DNA from: Sandaracinus sp.
Lineage (GTDB): Bacteria; Myxococcota_A; Polyangia; Polyangiales; Houyiibacteriaceae
Assembly (NCBI GenBank): GCA_002699025.1
Contig: PABA01000219.1
Location: 1 to 43,396 of the forward strand
DNA: 43,396 nucleotides
Direction: 5' to 3'
The position numbers and the translations under genes were made by a program. Positions within the stretch are counted from its first letter, which is position 1. Each line of letters starts with the position of its first letter. The notes beneath the pieces are model-generated. The model was not told the origin of the DNA and searched no databases. It saw nothing but the letters and a program-made list of their open reading frames with translations. Below are positions 8,431 through 35,650 of the stretch, one piece after another.

Positions 8431-8535
8431 CTCGATCCTCCGTTCCCCCACGGTTCGGTTCGGCTCGCGAGCTTACACCGACTCCGAGCCCGGGCGGGGA
8501 AGCCAACGCCCGCTCGCGGCCGTATGCTGCGAGTC

Positions 8536-11508
8536 ATGAGCCCCTTCCGCGCGACCACCCTCCTCGTCGCCCTCGCGTCCCTCTTCGTCGTCGGCGCCTC
8601 CTGCGGCGAGAACCGCCCCACCACGCCGGGCGGCGGCGAGAGCAGCGAGACCGGCGAGACCGGGGAGACCGGGGAGACCGGGGAGACCGGGGAGGCGACC
8701 GCCGGGCAGCCCGGGAGCGACACCGCCAGCGCCGACGCCGTGCCCCTGCCTGCGCTCCCCGAGGCCAGCGCGCCGGCGCCGGAGGAGCGGACGCCGCCCC
8801 GGATCGCGAGCCTGGACGACGCCGAGGGCGCGCTCCGGAGCGGCTTCTACGAGACGGTGGAGGAGGCCCTGCCGCGCCTCGGGGACACGCCCCGGGCGAA
8901 GCTGCTGAAGGCGCGCCTCCTCTTCGAGACCGGCCGCTACGCCGAGGCGGCGCGCCAGGCCAACGGCATCCAGGGGGACCGGCGCGTCGCGGCGCAGACG
9001 CTCCGCGGCGAAGCGCTCATGGCCACGGGCCAGCTCGACGAGGCCGAGCGCGTGCTCGACGCGCTGAAGGACGAGGCCTCGGCGCATCGCGCGCGCCTCA
9101 TGCTCGCGCGCCTCCACGCCCGTCGCGGGCGCATGGCCGAGGCCGAGCCGATGTTCATGCGGCTGATCGGCGCCTACAACGACGAGAGCATCCCGCGCGG
9201 GGACGCCGAGGGGCTCGCCTACGTGGCCATGGCCGCCTGGGGGCTCGGCTCGGCGCACGACGCGAACGACGCCTTCCGCGAGTCGGCCCAGGCCGACGGA
9301 GAGCGCGTCGAGACGCAGCTCGAGTGGGCGCGCCTCTTCCTCGCGAAGTACGACACGGGCCACGCCGAGGAGAGCGTCCGCGACGCGCTCCGGGTGAACC
9401 CCGAGCACCCGGTGGCCCACGCGCTCATGGCGCGCATCAAGATCGAGCAGAGCTTCGACTTCGCCGCCGCCGAGGAGCACGTCGACCGCGCCCTCGCCGT
9501 GAACCCGAACCTGGTCATGGCCCACGTCACGCGCGCCGGCATGGCGCTCCGCGACCTCGACATCGAGGGGGCCGACGCGCACCTCGATCGGGCGCTCGCC
9601 ATCGACGCGCACGACCTCGAGGCCCTGAGCGTGCGCGCCGCCGTGCGCTACCTCGCCGACGACGAGGAGGGCTTCGAGGCGGCCAAGCGGGAGGTACTCC
9701 GGCGCCACCGCACCTACAGCGAGCTCTACACGATCCTCGGCGAGTTCGCGGAGTGGGAGCATCGCTACCCGGACATCGTGGAGATGGCGCGCGAGGCGGT
9801 GACGCTGAACCCGGAGGACTACCGGGCCCACGCCATGCTCGGGCTGAACCTCCTGCGCATGGGCGACGAGGAGGCGGCCCTGCCGGCGCTCCAGTCGGCC
9901 TGGCGTCGCGACCGCTTCAACGTGCGCGTCTACAACACGCTGAACCTCTACGAGGAGGTCATCCCGCAGCACTACGAGGTCTTCGAGGCGGCGCCCTTCA
10001 CCTTCCGCATGCACGAGGAGGAGCGACCCATCCTCGAGCGCTACGTGCCGCGCACGCTGCAGACGGCCTACCGCGACATGGTGCGGCGCTACGGCTTCAC
10101 GCCGGAGGGCCCGCTCCGCATCGAGATGTTCGCGAGCACGCAGCACTTCAGCGTGCGCACGACGGGCCTGCCGAACCTCGGCGTGCAGGGCGTCTGCTTC
10201 GGCAAGGTCGTGACGGCCATCTCGCCGGAGGGTGGGCCCTTCAACTGGGGGCAGATCACCTGGCACGAGCTCGCCCACGTCTTCCACATCCAGCTCTCGC
10301 AGAACCGGGTGCCGCGCTGGTTCACGGAGGGGCTCGCCGAGTACGAGACGCTGATCACGCCGAACGAGTGGCGCCGGGAGATGGACCACCACCTCTGGGA
10401 GGCGCTCCAGGACGATCGGCTGCCGCCGCTGCGCCTGATGAACCGGGCCTTCACGCACGCGCGCTCGGCCATGGACATGATGGTCGCCTATTACGCGAGC
10501 ACGCGGATCGTGAAGTACATCGCCGACGAGTTCGGCTTCGAGAAGGTCGTGCGCATGCTCCGCGAGTGGGGCGCCGGGCGGCCGACCGTGGAGGTCGTGC
10601 AGCGGAGCCTCGGCATCAGCGTCGACCAGCTCGACGAGCGCTTCCGGGCGCACGCGCGGCGGCGCCTGAGCGGCCGGGGCGAGGACTTCAGCGTGGACTT
10701 CGCGGCCTTCCGCGAGCTCGAGCCGCTCCAGCAGGCGGCGCAGGCGGCGCCCCAGGACGCGGCGAAGCAGGCCTCGCTGGCGGCCGGGCTGCTCGTGAAC
10801 GGCGACCCGCAGGGGGCGCAGCAGGCGGCCGAGCGGGCCGTCGCGATCGAGGCCGGGCAGCCGGTGGCGCGCTACATCCTCGCGCGGCTCGCGCTCATGC
10901 AGCAGGACGGGCAGGGCGCGCAGGCGCACCTCGAGGCGCTCGTGAGCGGCGGGCACGACGGCTACGAGCTCCGCCTCCTGATGGCGCGGGCGGCGCTCGG
11001 GCAGGGCGACCAGGCGGCGGCGCGGACGGCGCTGGAGGCCGCGACGCAGCGGGACGGCGACCGGCCCGAGGCATGGCAGGGGCTCGCGGAGATCGCCGAG
11101 CAGGCGAACGACGCGGATCTCAGGCTGCGGGCGCTCGGGGCGCTGGCGCGCATCGACGAGCACGGGCGGGCCGTTCACGCGGAGTACCTCGACCTGCTCG
11201 TGCGGCGGGAGGCCTGGGACGACGCCGTGCGGGCCGGGGAGCTGGCGGTCTTCGCGGCGCCGGCGAACCCGGAGGTGCACGCGCACCTCGCGCGGGCGTA
11301 CCTGGCGAAGGGGCGGCATCGCGAGGCGCTCTACGAGGCGGACTCGGCGCTGATCGTGCAGCACCCGCAGCCGGGCTACGTGCACCTGCTGCGGGCGCGG
11401 GCCTTCCAGGGGCTCGGGCAGCGGCGGGAGGCGCGCGAGGCGGCGGAGGCGGCGCGGCAGGCGGATCCGGAGCTGGCGGAGCAGGCGGCGGAGATCACGG
11501 GGGGGTGA
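8536..11508 (+). CDS. TPR-repeat lipoprotein with gluzincin (peptidase MA-like) domain
   Basis: This 990-residue protein starts MSPFRATTLLVALASLFVV and has a lipobox ending at Cys23. A linker of GET repeats (residues 40-56) follows. Residues about 95-480 are TPR-type helical hairpins (for example LMLARLHARRGRMAEAEPMF, HPVAHALMARIKIEQ). The middle domain has WHELAHVFH with H577, E578, H581 and then WFTEGLAEYE with E598, the HExxH-x(16)-E zinc site of the M1/'peptidase MA' superfamily, with all ligands intact. The C-terminal 300 residues are again TPR-like. It is probably a periplasm-facing metalloprotease that recruits substrates by TPRs. ATG 8524 (four residues longer) is an alternative start; 8536 gives the better signal peptide. 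It has no obvious operon partner. Confidence 0.85.
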   Translation: MSPFRATTLLVALASLFVVGASCGENRPTTPGGGESSETGETGETGETGETGEATAGQPGSDTASADAVPLPALPEASAPAPEERTPPRIASLDDAEGALRSGFYETVEEALPRLGDTPRAKLLKARLLFETGRYAEAARQANGIQGDRRVAAQTLRGEALMATGQLDEAERVLDALKDEASAHRARLMLARLHARRGRMAEAEPMFMRLIGAYNDESIPRGDAEGLAYVAMAAWGLGSAHDANDAFRESAQADGERVETQLEWARLFLAKYDTGHAEESVRDALRVNPEHPVAHALMARIKIEQSFDFAAAEEHVDRALAVNPNLVMAHVTRAGMALRDLDIEGADAHLDRALAIDAHDLEALSVRAAVRYLADDEEGFEAAKREVLRRHRTYSELYTILGEFAEWEHRYPDIVEMAREAVTLNPEDYRAHAMLGLNLLRMGDEEAALPALQSAWRRDRFNVRVYNTLNLYEEVIPQHYEVFEAAPFTFRMHEEERPILERYVPRTLQTAYRDMVRRYGFTPEGPLRIEMFASTQHFSVRTTGLPNLGVQGVCFGKVVTAISPEGGPFNWGQITWHELAHVFHIQLSQNRVPRWFTEGLAEYETLITPNEWRREMDHHLWEALQDDRLPPLRLMNRAFTHARSAMDMMVAYYASTRIVKYIADEFGFEKVVRMLREWGAGRPTVEVVQRSLGISVDQLDERFRAHARRRLSGRGEDFSVDFAAFRELEPLQQAAQAAPQDAAKQASLAAGLLVNGDPQGAQQAAERAVAIEAGQPVARYILARLALMQQDGQGAQAHLEALVSGGHDGYELRLLMARAALGQGDQAAARTALEAATQRDGDRPEAWQGLAEIAEQANDADLRLRALGALARIDEHGRAVHAEYLDLLVRREAWDDAVRAGELAVFAAPANPEVHAHLARAYLAKGRHREALYEADSALIVQHPQPGYVHLLRARAFQGLGQRREAREAAEAARQADPELAEQAAEITGG

Positions 11509-11560
11509 CGCGGGGAGCCCGAGCGGGGAGCGGGAGCCCGAGCCCGTGCGGCGAGAGCGG

Positions 11561-11586
11561 CGCCTGACCCCTGCGCCTGACCCCTG
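11561..11586. repeat. 13-bp direct duplication in intergenic region
   Basis: CGCCTGACCCCTG occurs twice head to tail, about 28 bp before the start of the next gene. The surrounding 105-bp gap also has GAGCCCGAGCGGGGAGCGGG-like purine repeats and no clear promoter. Confidence 0.8.
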
Positions 11587-11613
11587 CGCGCGGTTCGCAC
11601 TAAGCTACGCGCC

Positions 11614-13065
11614 ATGCGGCGCACCCTCCTCGCGGCGACCTTCTCGCTTCTCGCCTGCGCGGGCTCCGGGTCGGCCACGCTCACCGTGGCGCTCGAGACG
11701 GACCTCCAGCCCTTCGTCGACTTCGACGAGGTCGACGTCCAGTGGATCCGCGGCGACGCCATCGTCGCCATGGAGCGGGTCGAGGTCGGCCCCGGCGACG
11801 ACGTCTCCCGCGGCTTCGACCTCGCGACCTTCGCCACGGGCAACGGGCGCGCGGAGATCGCCGTGCGCCTCTATGGGAGCGCAGGCGAGGTCGGCCGGCG
11901 CCGCGCCTTCGTGGACGTGCGCGGCGACACGCGCGCCGTGATCCTCGTCAGCGCCGAATGCGGTCTCGGGGAGGCCTGCCCAGGTGAAGGCGACTCCTTC
12001 GACGCCACCGAGTGCATCGCCGGCGCCTGCTTCCCGCCGACCTGCCTCGGTCGCGACTGCCTCGGCGGCGGCGGGAGCTGCGATGTCGACGCGGACTGCG
12101 ATCCGCGCGACGGCTGCTCGAGCGGGCGCTGCAGTCGCGGCCGCTGCGTGGTCACGCCGGACGACGGCGCCTGCGCGGCGGGCCAGCGCTGCGTCGTCGG
12201 CGTCGGCTGCACGAGCGGGGGGGGCTGCGACGACCCGGGCCCCGAGGTCTGCAACGGCGTCGACGACGACTGCGACGCCTCCACGCCGGACGGCGCCGAA
12301 GACCCGATGCTCGGCGAGAGCTGCGATGGCGACGACGCCGACCTCTGCACGCGCGGCAGCTTCGTGTGCGTCGGCGGCGCCCTCGTCTGCGAGGAGACCG
12401 GCCCGGAGGCGACGGAGACCTGCGACGGCACGGACGAGGACTGCGACGGGCTGATCGACGAGACGGGCGACGAGGCCTGGTACCCGGACGAGGACGGCGA
12501 CGGCTACGGCGACGAGGCGCGGGTCGAGCTGACCTGCGAGCGGCCGGGCCCCGAGTACGTCTCGCGCGGGGGCGACTGCGCGGACCGAGACGAGAACGTC
12601 TTCCCCGACTCGCCCGAGGGCTGCAACGCCGCCGACGACGACTGCGACGGCGCGATCGACGAGGGCGGCTGCGTCGGCTGCGAGAGCCATACGACGGCCG
12701 ACGCGGTCTTCCTGGTCTGCCGCACGAGCCGCCGCTGGACGGACGCCGTCGGGCTCTGCGAGGGGGGCGGCTACGAGCTGGCGCGCATCGACTCGGCCGC
12801 GCGCCAGGCCGAGCTCGAGGCGGCCTTCGCGGCGACCGGCATCAGCGGGAGCTTCTGGATCGGCTACAACGACCGGTCCACGGAGGGCATCTTCCGCTGG
12901 GCCGACGGCAGCGCGAGCGGGTACGACAACTGGGCCTCGGGGGAGCCGGACGATGGCGGCACCTTCGGCACGGAGAACTGCGCGCTGGTGTCTTCGAGCG
13001 ACGGGCTCTGGCGCGACGAGGGCTGCGGCAGCGAAGAGCGCTACGTCTGCACCGTGGAGCGCTGA
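11614..13065 (+). CDS. lipoprotein with MopE-type metal-binding repeats and C-terminal C-type lectin domain
   Basis: This 483-residue protein has a lipoprotein signal (MRRTLLAATFSLLAC, Cys15). Residues 20-115 form a beta-rich domain. A Cys-rich region contains at least three copies of the Put_metal_bind/MopE motif: EVCNGVDDDCD, ETCDGTDEDCDGLIDE and EGCNAADDDCDGAIDEGGC. A Ca-loop-like DEDGDGYGD lies between two of them. The last 125 residues are a C-type lectin-like domain: FWIGYNDRSTEGIFRWADGS, then W-x-GEPDD, ENCA, LWRDEGC and YVCTVE, with the paired cysteines in place. EPD and WRD stand where EPN and WND would be in classic Ca/sugar binders. It is likely a surface adhesin or glycan-binding protein. 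Confidence 0.85.
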   Translation: MRRTLLAATFSLLACAGSGSATLTVALETDLQPFVDFDEVDVQWIRGDAIVAMERVEVGPGDDVSRGFDLATFATGNGRAEIAVRLYGSAGEVGRRRAFVDVRGDTRAVILVSAECGLGEACPGEGDSFDATECIAGACFPPTCLGRDCLGGGGSCDVDADCDPRDGCSSGRCSRGRCVVTPDDGACAAGQRCVVGVGCTSGGGCDDPGPEVCNGVDDDCDASTPDGAEDPMLGESCDGDDADLCTRGSFVCVGGALVCEETGPEATETCDGTDEDCDGLIDETGDEAWYPDEDGDGYGDEARVELTCERPGPEYVSRGGDCADRDENVFPDSPEGCNAADDDCDGAIDEGGCVGCESHTTADAVFLVCRTSRRWTDAVGLCEGGGYELARIDSAARQAELEAAFAATGISGSFWIGYNDRSTEGIFRWADGSASGYDNWASGEPDDGGTFGTENCALVSSSDGLWRDEGCGSEERYVCTVER

Positions 13066-13117
13066 GCGAGACCGACCACGCCGACCGTCCTCTCCGCCCG
13101 GCGACTTCGCCCGGTGG

Positions 13118-13417
13118 CATCGCCCGTCCACATCGCCGGGCGGCATCGCGCGGCGGCATCGCCCGTCCACATGGCCCGTCCACATCGCCGGGTGGCATCG
13201 CGTGGCGGCATCGCCGGGTGGCATCGCCGGGTGGCATCGCCGGGTGGCATCGCCGGGTGGCATCGCGCGGCGGCATCGCCGGTCCACATGGCCCGTCCAC
13301 ATCGCCGGGTGGCATCGCGTGGCGGCATCGCCGGGTGGCATCGCGCGGCGGCATCGCCCGTCCACATCGCCGGGTGGCATCGCCCGGCGGCATCGCGCGC
13401 ACATCGCCCGGCGGCAC
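13118..13417. repeat. 13-bp satellite array, about 23 units
   Basis: CAT(C/G)G recurs every 13 bp from 13118 to 13391 without a single phase slip, then one 11-bp step, then one more unit at 13402. The main unit types are CATCGCCGGGTGG, CATCGCGCGGCGG, CATCGCCCGTCCA, CATGGCCCGTCCA and CATCGCGTGGCGG. A block of six units (13144-13221) is repeated almost exactly at 13261-13338, which shows a higher-order duplication with a 117-bp offset. The 419-bp gap between the lectin lipoprotein and the histidine kinase holds nothing else I can see. The frames are open on both strands only because the array has few stops; 13 bp is not a multiple of 3, so it is not a protein repeat. Confidence 0.95.
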
Positions 13418-13484
13418 GCTCTCTCCGCGCGTCGCGGGCCGTTTCCGTGCTTCGCCTCGCGGGACGCGATACTCCTGATCGCCG

Positions 13485-15455
13485 GTGCGTCCTCGCTTCA
13501 GCATCCCGACCCGCATCTTCCTGGCCTTCGCGCTGACCCTGGTCGCGTTCGGCGCCATCGCGCTGACCTCCGTCATCCAGCACGAGCGGACCAGCCGCCA
13601 GCTCCGCCTCCTCCACGACGGCTACCTCCCCCTCGCGCTCCGCCTCGGCGAGGCCCGCTCGCACCAGAACGTCTACCGCCGCCACGTCGAACGCCTCCTC
13701 GAGAGCCCGACCGAGCTCCGTTGGTTCAACGCCGCCCGCCAGCTCCGCCCCTCGACCATGCGGCGCCTCCGCCACTTCGTGGACCGGGCCGAGGAGCTCG
13801 CCACGAAGGCCGGCGATCGCTCCACGCTCCCGCCGATCCGCGACGCCCTCGACGAGGTCGCCGGCGCCTACGAGAGCACGGCGCCCCGCTACGAGGCCCT
13901 CGTCGACACGCTCGAGGCCGGCGACCCGGCCCGGGCGGCCGCCCTCCACGAGGAGCTCCAGGCGAGCGAGCTCGAGATCGAACGCCAGTACCGCGAGGCC
14001 TACAACCACATCGTCGATCGCATCGACTCCCTCGCCGCCGCTGCGAGCACGCGCGAGCGCCGCGCCGCGCTCCTCCTGGGCGTCTTCGCCATCCTCGCGC
14101 TCCTCCTCGGCCTCGGCGCCACGCTCTGGTCGCAGCGCATGCTCAAGCCCCTGCCCACGCTCCAGCGCCGCGTCGCCGCCGTCGCCGAGGGAGACCTGGC
14201 CGCCCAGCCCCTCACGGTGAAGGGCGACGACGAGCTCGCCCGCCTCGCCCAGGACTTCGAGCAGATGGTCGAGGCCCTCGCCGCCCGCGACGCCCGCCTG
14301 CGCGACCTTCGCCGCATGCAGGCGCAGATCGTCGCCGGCCTCCGCGCCGCCGTGGTCGTCGTCGACGCCGACGACGTCGTGCGCACGGTGAACCCGGCCG
14401 CCGCCGAGGTGCTCGGCCTGGACGAGGACTCCATCGGCCACGGGCTCGGCGCGCTCGGCCTCCGCGGCGCCCTCCCGGAGCTCGGCGAGGCCCTCGACGC
14501 CGTCCGCGAGGACGCCCGGGCGCGCACCCTCGAGGCCGAGCCCTGGCGCCGCCCCGGCGAGGAGGGCGAGCGCCGCGTCGACTTCCTCGTCACCCCCTTC
14601 GGCTCCGAGCCGGGGGCGCTCCTCCTGGTCGCCGACGACGTCACGGAGGCCGTCCGCACCAAGGCCCGGCTCATCCAGACCGAGCGCCTCGCCGCCATCG
14701 GCCGCATGGCCGCGCACGTGACCCACGAGGTGCGGAACCCGCTCTCGAGCATCGGCCTGAACGTCGAGATGCTCGGCGACGAGATCCCGGCCGGGGAGAG
14801 CGAGGCCCGGGCGCTCCTCGCGGCGATCCAGAAGGAGATCGACCGGCTCACGGGCATCACGGAGGAGTACCTCCGGCTGGCGCGCCTGCCCCAGCCGCGC
14901 CTGGAGGCCGACGACCTCGGTGACCTCGCGCGCACCGTCGCCGACTTCGTCCGCCCGGAGATGCGCGCGGCGGGCGTCGAGCTCGAGGTCGAGATCGACG
15001 AGGCGCTCCCGCTCGTGGCCTTCGACGAGGCGCAGCTCCGCCAGTCGCTCCTGAACCTCTTGCGGAACGCGCGCGAAGCCGTGGAGGGGGCCGAGCGCGA
15101 CGGCGTGGCGCTCCGCGTGCTGGCCGAGGACGGGGGCGTCAGCCTGCGCGTCGAGGACGAGGGCCCGGGCATCCCCGCGGCCATGCGCCACCGGGTCTTC
15201 GACCTCTTCTTCACGACCAAGGAGCGCGGCAGCGGCCTCGGCCTGCCCCTGACCCAGCAGATCGTCGCGGCCCACGGCGGGCGCATCCGCTGCACGCCCC
15301 GCGAGGGGGGCCCGGGGACGGTCTTCGCGCTCTGGTTCCCGGCCGCCGACGCCTTCGACGAGGCTCCGGCGCGCGAGGAGGAGCCCGCCCGGCGCGGCGA
15401 CGGGCCCCCCGCGGAGCTTGCGCCCGCCCCGGCCGATGGCATGACGGGGACATGA
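13485..15455 (+). CDS. membrane sensor histidine kinase (HAMP-PAS-HisKA-HATPase, NtrB-like)
   Basis: This 656-residue protein has a transmembrane segment near residues 9-30 and a helical periplasmic sensor of about 170 residues. A second transmembrane segment lies near 195-215 (LLLGVFAILALLLGLGATLW). A HAMP domain, a PAS-like domain (LRAAVVVVDADDVVRTVNPAA), the phospho-acceptor H-box AAHVTHEVRNPLSS with H414, the N-box LLNLLRNAREAVE (N528), G1 DEGPGIP, F-box LFFTTK and G2 GSGLGLPL follow. It autophosphorylates on His and passes phosphate to a response regulator. No regulator gene is visible in the window. The start is GTG 13485. Its stop overlaps the rph start by 4 bp (ATGA), so it is the first gene of an operon with rph and rdgB. 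Confidence 0.93.
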   Translation: MRPRFSIPTRIFLAFALTLVAFGAIALTSVIQHERTSRQLRLLHDGYLPLALRLGEARSHQNVYRRHVERLLESPTELRWFNAARQLRPSTMRRLRHFVDRAEELATKAGDRSTLPPIRDALDEVAGAYESTAPRYEALVDTLEAGDPARAAALHEELQASELEIERQYREAYNHIVDRIDSLAAAASTRERRAALLLGVFAILALLLGLGATLWSQRMLKPLPTLQRRVAAVAEGDLAAQPLTVKGDDELARLAQDFEQMVEALAARDARLRDLRRMQAQIVAGLRAAVVVVDADDVVRTVNPAAAEVLGLDEDSIGHGLGALGLRGALPELGEALDAVREDARARTLEAEPWRRPGEEGERRVDFLVTPFGSEPGALLLVADDVTEAVRTKARLIQTERLAAIGRMAAHVTHEVRNPLSSIGLNVEMLGDEIPAGESEARALLAAIQKEIDRLTGITEEYLRLARLPQPRLEADDLGDLARTVADFVRPEMRAAGVELEVEIDEALPLVAFDEAQLRQSLLNLLRNAREAVEGAERDGVALRVLAEDGGVSLRVEDEGPGIPAAMRHRVFDLFFTTKERGSGLGLPLTQQIVAAHGGRIRCTPREGGPGTVFALWFPAADAFDEAPAREEEPARRGDGPPAELAPAPADGMTGT

Positions 15456-16201
15456 CCCGAGAGGACGGCCGCGGCTACGACGCCCTGAGACCCGTCACCG
15501 TCGAGACGGCGGTGCAGCGCAACCCGGAGGGCTCCGTGCTCTACCGCTGCGGGGGGACGACCGTGCTCGTCTCCGCCTCGGTCGAGGAGAGCGCGCCGCC
15601 CTGGCTGAAGGAGGGGCACGGCTGGCTCACGGCCGAGTACGCGATGCATCCCCGCGCCAACGATCGGCGCCAGCGCCGCGAGGGCATGAAGGGGCGCGTC
15701 TCCGGGCGCACGGCCGAGATCCAGCGGCTCATCGGTCGCGCCCTCCGCGCCGCCGTGCACCTCGACCGGCTGGGCTCGCGGCAGATCGTCGTCGACTGCG
15801 ACGTGCTCGACGCGGACGGCGGCACGCGCACGGCCTCGGTCACGGGCGGCTTCATCGCGACGGCCATGGCGCTCCACGTGCTCCGCCAGCGCGGGCTGGT
15901 GCCGCGCGGCATCCTCCGCGAGCCGGTCGCGGCCATCAGCGTGGGCCTGGTGAACGACAAGCCCATGCTCGACCTCTGCTACGTCGAGGACCGGGACGCG
16001 TCCGTCGACCTCAACGTCGTCGGCACCACCGGCGGCGCCTTCGTGGAGGTCCAGGGGACGGCCGAGGGCGCGCCCGTGCCGCGGCCCCAGCTCGACGCCA
16101 TGCTCGACCTGGCCCTCGGTGCCATGCCGCGCCTCGTGGACGTGCAGAAGGAGGCGCTCGTGGAGGCGGGCGTCGACCTCGGCGCGCTCCTCGGGAAGTG
16201 A
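15452..16201 (+). CDS. rph: ribonuclease PH
   Basis: This 249-residue protein fits RNase PH throughout: R-x-Y-D-x-LRPV near the start, GTTVLVSASVEE, WLTAEYAMHPRA, the RxxR-rich loop R-Q-x-R-E-G, GRTAEIQRLIGRALRAAVHL, VDCDVLDADGGTRTASVTGG and DKPMLDLCYVED. It trims nucleotides from the 3' end of tRNA precursors and structured RNAs using phosphate, as a hexamer in the cytoplasm. It is of usual family length. Start ATG 15452 lies inside the last codons of the histidine kinase (ATGA overlap), and rdgB follows 7 bp downstream; the rph-rdgB pairing is common in bacteria. Confidence 0.97.
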   Translation: MTREDGRGYDALRPVTVETAVQRNPEGSVLYRCGGTTVLVSASVEESAPPWLKEGHGWLTAEYAMHPRANDRRQRREGMKGRVSGRTAEIQRLIGRALRAAVHLDRLGSRQIVVDCDVLDADGGTRTASVTGGFIATAMALHVLRQRGLVPRGILREPVAAISVGLVNDKPMLDLCYVEDRDASVDLNVVGTTGGAFVEVQGTAEGAPVPRPQLDAMLDLALGAMPRLVDVQKEALVEAGVDLGALLGK

Positions 16202-35036: not shown

Positions 35037-35640
35037 GCGCTCGCTGCGCTCGCTGCGCTCGCGGCTGTCCGCTTTCCGCTCTCCGCTGTCCGTGGCGGGG
35101 GCATCGAGGCGGCAGGGGCGGCCGCGTTCGCGGAGGAGGCGGGGGCCCGCGGCGGGTCGCTCGCGGCGCTCGCGGCTGTCCGCTTTCCGCTCTCCGCTTT
35201 CCGTGGCGGGGGCATCGAGGCGGCGGGGGCGGCCGCGTTCGCGATTGAGCGCTCGCTGCGCTCGCGGCTGTCCGCTTTCCGCTCTCCGCTGTCCGTCGCG
35301 GGGGCATCGAGGCGGCGGGGGCGGCCGCGTTCGCGGAGGGAGGGGGGAGGCCCGCTCGCAGCGCTCGCGGCTGTCCGCTTTCCATGCCGGGGCATCGAGG
35401 CGGCGGGGGCGGCCGCGTTCGCGATTGAGCGCTCGCAGCGCTCGCGGCTGTTCGCTGTCCGCTTTCCGCTTTCCGTGGCGGGGGCATCGAGGCGGCGGGG
35501 GCGGCCGCGTTCGCGGAGGGAGGGGGGAGGCCCGCGGCGGGTCGCTCGCGGCGCTCGCGGCTGTCTGCTTTCCGTGCCGGGGCATCGAGGCGGGGGGGCG
35601 GCAGCGTTCGCGGAGGAGAGGAGGCCCGCGACGGACGGCT
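35037..35640. repeat. higher-order intergenic repeat, modules A-B-A-C
   Basis: A core module A (GCGGCTGTCCGCTTTCCGCT ... GGGGGCATCGAGGCGG ... GGCCGCGTTCGCG, about 70 bp) starts at 35061, 35172, 35264, 35367, 35444 and 35557. Between copies lie two linker types. B is purine-rich (GAGG-AGGCGGGGGCCCGCGG...). C is ATTGAGCGCTCGCTGCGCTC. The order is C-A-B-A-C-A-B-A-C-A-B-A-B, so the real unit is about 180-200 bp with two A modules. Reading frames are open because of composition, but codon pattern, mixed periods and lack of starts argue against a protein. Together with the stretch to 35973 this 937-bp gap holds no gene I can support. Confidence 0.93.
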
Positions 35641-35650
35641 CGCGGCGGCT

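Follow-up and report, generated by a model that had tools for sequence, protein, structure and literature searches.

A 13-bp Intergenic Minisatellite, Most Likely Neutral, in a Sandaracinus sp. Genome with an Excess of 13- to 16-bp Tandem Units

We describe here an array of 13-bp tandem units from Sandaracinus sp. (GenBank assembly GCA_002699025.1), located in a 43,396-nucleotide stretch of contig PABA01000219.1 that was analyzed as a whole and is called the window below. The array occupies the noncoding gap between a gene for a lectin-domain protein and a gene for a membrane histidine kinase, the stop codon of which is overlapped by an rph-like gene (Table 1). The limits of the gap come from gene calling with a model trained on 1.56 Mb of this genome. 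The array begins approximately 30 bp after the lectin stop codon, and the kinase start codon, a GTG at 13485, lies 68 bp past its end, as expected from the original prediction, which put the repeats directly upstream of a membrane histidine kinase. TRF also detected a second 13-bp tandem repeat, GCGCCTGACCCCT, present in 2.3 perfect copies at 11560-11589, just before the lectin gene, and unrelated in sequence to the main array. Inside the lectin gene, at 12779-12827, Rfam gave a hit to mir-2518 whose 26.9 bits fall below the cut-off of 61; it was taken as chance.

Table 1. Coordinates of the array, its parts, and the neighboring genes in the window
Feature	Coordinates	Strand	Description	Basis
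Flanking gene	11614..13065	+	MopE metal-binding motifs and C-type lectin domain, 483 aa	Pfam PF00059, PF11617
Noncoding gap	13066..13484	.	Holds the array	Gene calling trained on same genome; codon log-odds negative in six frames
13-bp tandem array	13095..13416	.	About 25 units, consensus CATCGCCGGGTGG	TRF and unit table
Strict-register core	13118..13401	.	22 CAT[C/G]G cores 13 bp apart, the last opening an 11-bp unit	
Six-unit block, copy 1	13144..13221	.	First copy in the 117-bp duplication	TRF and unit table
Six-unit block, copy 2	13261..13338	.	One mismatch relative to copy 1	TRF and unit table
Flanking gene	13485..15455	+	Membrane histidine kinase (HAMP, PAS, HisKA, HATPase_c), 656 aa	Pfam
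rph-like gene (RNase PH)	15452..16201	+	Overlaps the kinase stop codon	Pfam PF01138, PF03725

The array was reported by TRF with a period of 13, 24.9 copies, 76% matches, and 1% indels, and with a second period of 117 over 13107-13410 (2.6 copies; score, 474). The CAT[C/G]G cores stand at 13118, 13131, and so on to 13391, giving 21 successive intervals of exactly 13 bp and then one of 11 bp; the register is perfect for 273 bp before a single 2-bp deletion breaks it. The 11-bp unit starting at 13391 is followed by one further full unit, and 13095-13117 contains two additional degenerate units, so that a homogeneous core is bordered by degenerate edges. These counts agree with the approximately 23 units in register over 270 bp that had been predicted, in a slightly longer array. 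The first 21 units comprise eight distinct 13-mers, instead of the five unit types first proposed, and 5 of the 13 unit positions (1 to 3, 5, and 6), forming the CATCGC core, are nearly invariant across them. Counted by hand, the differences among the eight unit types amount to about ten substitutions and one 2-bp deletion.

Compared with itself at a shift of 117 bp, the array is 93% identical and contains an uninterrupted match of 63 bp (13165 = 13282), a higher-order duplication of nine units; the six-unit block said to be copied at this offset does recur there. The best lag identity of the gap was 0.65, at lag 13. Because the maximum over all lags from 2 to 59 in 2,000 first-order Markov shuffles was 0.44, chance is excluded. 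The units are directly adjacent and have no unique spacers between them, which distinguishes the array from a CRISPR array. No sigma-70 promoter or intrinsic terminator was found, and the Rfam families searched gave no match to the array. Neither strand folds more stably than shuffled sequences (z = 0.32 and 1.90 as RNA and 1.88 as DNA), and a stem-loop stable beyond composition, the mark of REP/BIME or structured RNA elements, was accordingly not found in the array.

Relatives of the kinase were found in 35 of the 38 related genomes searched, which represent one genome per species and all lie outside the genus, and also in metagenome-assembled genomes (MAGs) recorded as Polyangiaceae, Deltaproteobacteria, or Myxococcales (e.g., L122, L123, and L125). 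None of the 30 readable relative loci has a tandem array upstream of the kinase at a TRF score of 40; these include four MAG loci, one of which (L123) may be the same genome as G008, making the independent relatives slightly fewer. The corresponding gap ranges from −3 to 1,089 bp and is usually 20 to 200 bp long. In several relatives, the gene preceding the kinase is an orthologue of the gene at 8524-11508 in the window. The lectin gene and the array together therefore look like an addition between two conserved neighbors, as far as gene order can suggest.

The original prediction had proposed a search for the 13-mer family in the complete genome and in relatives and had held that a lack of copies and of conservation would mark a neutral slippage product; this is largely what was found. 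A DNA search of the whole genome returned only weak partial matches (77 to 80%), and a pattern search allowing two mismatches found no second array of the unit. The unit thus does not form arrays at several genome sites, as a transposed satellite family would. The core hexamer occurs in 9 of 259 noncoding arrays with units of up to 40 bp, ranking 162 of 1,019 hexamers, and is not enriched. GCGATG/CATCGC repeats do occur in many genomes of the order, at spacings of 12, 13, 14, 15, and 16 bp. Array units of equal length in this genome are about as alike as shuffled units and mostly unrelated; among 13-mers, close unit pairs slightly exceed expectation (4 against 0.6). Among the related genomes, a 3.8-copy 13-bp array with the unit GATGCGACCCGGC (G010, L177, 12933-12981) is identical to the window unit at 12 of 13 positions in reverse complement. 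It belongs to another genus and occupies a nonorthologous place, on a different contig from the kinase of that genome (L005/L177), and the likeness is taken to be a probable coincidence.

Tandem arrays are abundant in this genome. In a 1.56-Mb sample (17% of the genome), TRF at a score of 60 found 314 noncoding arrays, or 202/Mb, covering 17.6% of noncoding bases, against 15 Markov-shuffled gaps with an array. The base period is 13 in 23 of the arrays. At the same score, the density is 200/Mb in G011 and 10 to 17/Mb in G008 and G015 (60 to 120 kb each). With a filter loosely like that of Subirana and Messeguer (2019), requiring at least four copies, a unit of 10 to 200 bp, and at least 80% match in TRF, the density of the Sandaracinus genome is approximately 75/Mb. 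Loss of MutS was considered as a cause of this load and rejected, as MutS-domain proteins are present in four copies, like in relatives with few arrays. Reverse transcriptases number four in this genome and zero to three in the relatives searched.

Unit lengths were also counted with a detector independent of TRF, requiring at least three copies and 45 bp; its recall stays level for unit lengths between 5 and 24 bp, and a Markov null gives no arrays. Units of 13 to 16 bp account for 64 of 116 noncoding arrays (13, 12, 27, and 12 arrays, respectively), units of 9 to 12 bp for 3, and units of 17 bp for 1; noncoding arrays with 7- to 12-bp units are nearly absent. The same floor applies to coding arrays, of which 37 have 15-bp units, 11 have 18-bp units, and 1 has 12-bp units. 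The band emerged post hoc, in a sample (G000) that was not random over contigs. It was not seen in approximately 0.9 Mb of relatives, which contain few arrays, nor clearly in 120 kb of array-rich G011. Divergent gene pairs enclose fewer noncoding arrays of 13- to 16-bp units than expected (3 of 57 against 25%; P about 0.0001).

A band of unit lengths combined with mostly unrelated unit sequences suggests a length-selective mutational process. Tentatively, and with the balance somewhat against it, we propose that such a process in this genome makes or spares tandem steps of about 13 to 16 bp, whatever their sequence. On this view, the 13-bp array and several hundred unrelated minisatellites would all be its products, sharing unit length and not sequence, and the coding excess at 15 bp would reflect the same pressure. 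The unit-length band of the genome, not the 13-bp array, is the interesting lead: a genome with approximately 200 noncoding arrays/Mb and such a band could help to reveal the repair or replication step that sets a size floor for minisatellite units. The closest parallel in print comes from dividing yeast, in which mismatch repair limits microsatellite rather than minisatellite changes, according to the account of Sia et al. (1997) given in PMC3618361. To apply this parallel to the band would be speculation; the genome does encode MutS-domain proteins.

The array itself is very probably a private noncoding minisatellite without sequence-specific function, and it is most likely neutral, having grown by slippage and unequal exchange. 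A chance duplication of approximately 13 bp between the lectin and kinase genes would have been multiplied by replication slippage, the unit types would have arisen through about ten point mutations, and blocks of nine units would have been copied by unequal exchange or larger slips. The register would be kept without selection on spacing if an existing 13-bp unit serves as the template for each one added. Its position past a stop codon, with 68 bp still clear before the kinase begins, may have allowed the array to survive, and the genome's excess of 13- to 16-bp units may reflect a mutational process favoring or tolerating steps of that size.

Most units duplicate others in the array, so that about ten substitutions and a single indel suffice to account for the strict register; with one register break in about ten events, the unit table indicates that selection on spacing is not needed. 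Similarly, 9 of the 54 divergent noncoding arrays of at least five copies in the genome sample have at most 1% indels. The original prediction had offered either selection on spacing or fast unequal exchange. Exchange is favored by the 117-bp copy, the homogenized core, and the decayed edges; spacing selection is disfavored by the lack of the array at this gap in all 30 readable relatives and by other arrays that are divergent yet have few indels. Some observations count against neutrality: no other array with period 13 is as long, and among all 314 it ranks 23rd in length, which is high for its class; its core is nearly invariant, as expected of a binding core; its indels are few relative to its divergence; and the GATGCGACCCGGC array in another genus resembles it closely.

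Functional readings of the array were also weighed. A protein binding each CATCG core at 13-bp spacing could make the array a multisite operator controlling the kinase or the lectin gene; the invariant core positions and the 68-bp distance to the kinase start are what such an element might look like. Thirty relatives nevertheless keep the kinase without the array, so that neither sites nor spacing are conserved; the core repeats occur at many spacings within the order; the hexamer is not enriched among arrays of this genome; and 13- to 16-bp arrays avoid divergent gaps, which contain promoters only. An operator is thus very unlikely from the sequence comparisons, and selection on spacing was rejected on the same grounds of conservation, enrichment, and spacing. 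The array could otherwise serve the 3′ end of the lectin gene, e.g., as a Rho-loading region of spaced pyrimidine-C motifs or as a structure stabilizing the mRNA. Its start close beyond the lectin stop codon would fit, as would the depletion of the genome's arrays in divergent gaps and the location of noncoding arrays, which lie closer to the stop codon upstream than to the start codon downstream (medians, 57.5 and 113 bp; P = 0.0008), but purifying selection against arrays in promoters also explains this placement. The sense strand of the array has almost no C excess (skew, −0.024), arrays and array-free gaps are not clearly different (mean skew, −0.03 and −0.02), the 13- to 16-bp class has a skew of −0.10 with 62% C>G, and the fold does not exceed that of shuffles. 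We give a 3′-end role only a slim chance.

That the array is an artifact of short-read assembly, in which a longer or simpler array was collapsed or scrambled, appears extremely improbable: the genome is in 238 contigs and some sampled contigs begin or finish in arrays, but this array is internal to a 43-kb contig, the mixture of its units follows a consistent nested pattern, and the genome has many arrays like it. The true copy number may differ from that of the assembly. A present or former coding repeat, in which 39 bp would encode 13 residues, is barely credible. The array is open in all six reading frames, which is common at 74% GC, but the codon log-odds are negative in every one (−0.15 to −0.39), against +0.49 and +0.58 per codon for the two flanking genes. 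The tested frames crossing the array gave no Pfam match, a 13-bp period is not divisible by 3, and the frame changes at the 11-bp unit. We retain the neutral minisatellite as the preferred explanation; the array is ordinary for its genome, and only an experiment would justify treating it as a regulatory element.

Eukaryotic minisatellites have interspersed variant units and duplications of multiunit blocks, as expected of unequal exchange, and the array shares this structure, although it is far shorter. Like iterons and spaced operator arrays, it consists of regularly spaced short direct repeats adjoining a gene; unlike them, it has no adjacent replication gene, no conservation, and no enrichment of its core. 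Bacterial intergenic minisatellites are lineage-restricted noncoding arrays of 10- to 200-bp units repeated head to tail in at least four copies, a description that the array fits. The bacterial satellites, or variable-number tandem repeats (VNTRs), surveyed by Subirana and Messeguer (PMC6749651) are comparable, being tandem noncoding units of 10 to 200 nucleotides in at least four copies, often unique and mutually unrelated. By its own criteria, that survey reports no more than 23 satellites/Mb for bacteria and 89/Mb for Methanosarcina; the density of approximately 75/Mb found here exceeds the bacterial maximum, in a rough comparison between different programs. The surveyed units are multiples of 3 or derivatives of 6- to 8-bp repeats, whereas those found here are mostly 13 to 16 bp. 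The survey text makes no mention of Myxococcales or Deltaproteobacteria, and a search of the literature on myxobacterial tandem repeats found nothing on such arrays. Burkholderia mallei and Burkholderia pseudomallei resemble this genome in being GC rich with many short-unit arrays (PMC6749651). Their units, of 12, 14, and 16 bp, derive from 6- to 8-bp microsatellites, whereas the present genome has hardly any 7- to 12-bp arrays and commonly uses 13- and 15-bp units.

Other repeats were encountered in the window and in the genome sample. A long higher-order array at 35158-35647 of the window contains GCTTTCC/GCTGTCC heptamers, and a related 13-mer, GTCCGCTTTCCGC, has 20 occurrences in 9 of the 80 sampled genome stretches, which suggests a dispersed intergenic repeat. 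A repeated CGTCCGCAGGACTCCC motif forms several 22- to 24-bp arrays in L057, L076, L047, L100, and other sampled stretches, and GTCCGCAGGACTC is present in 46 copies in 8 of the 80 stretches.
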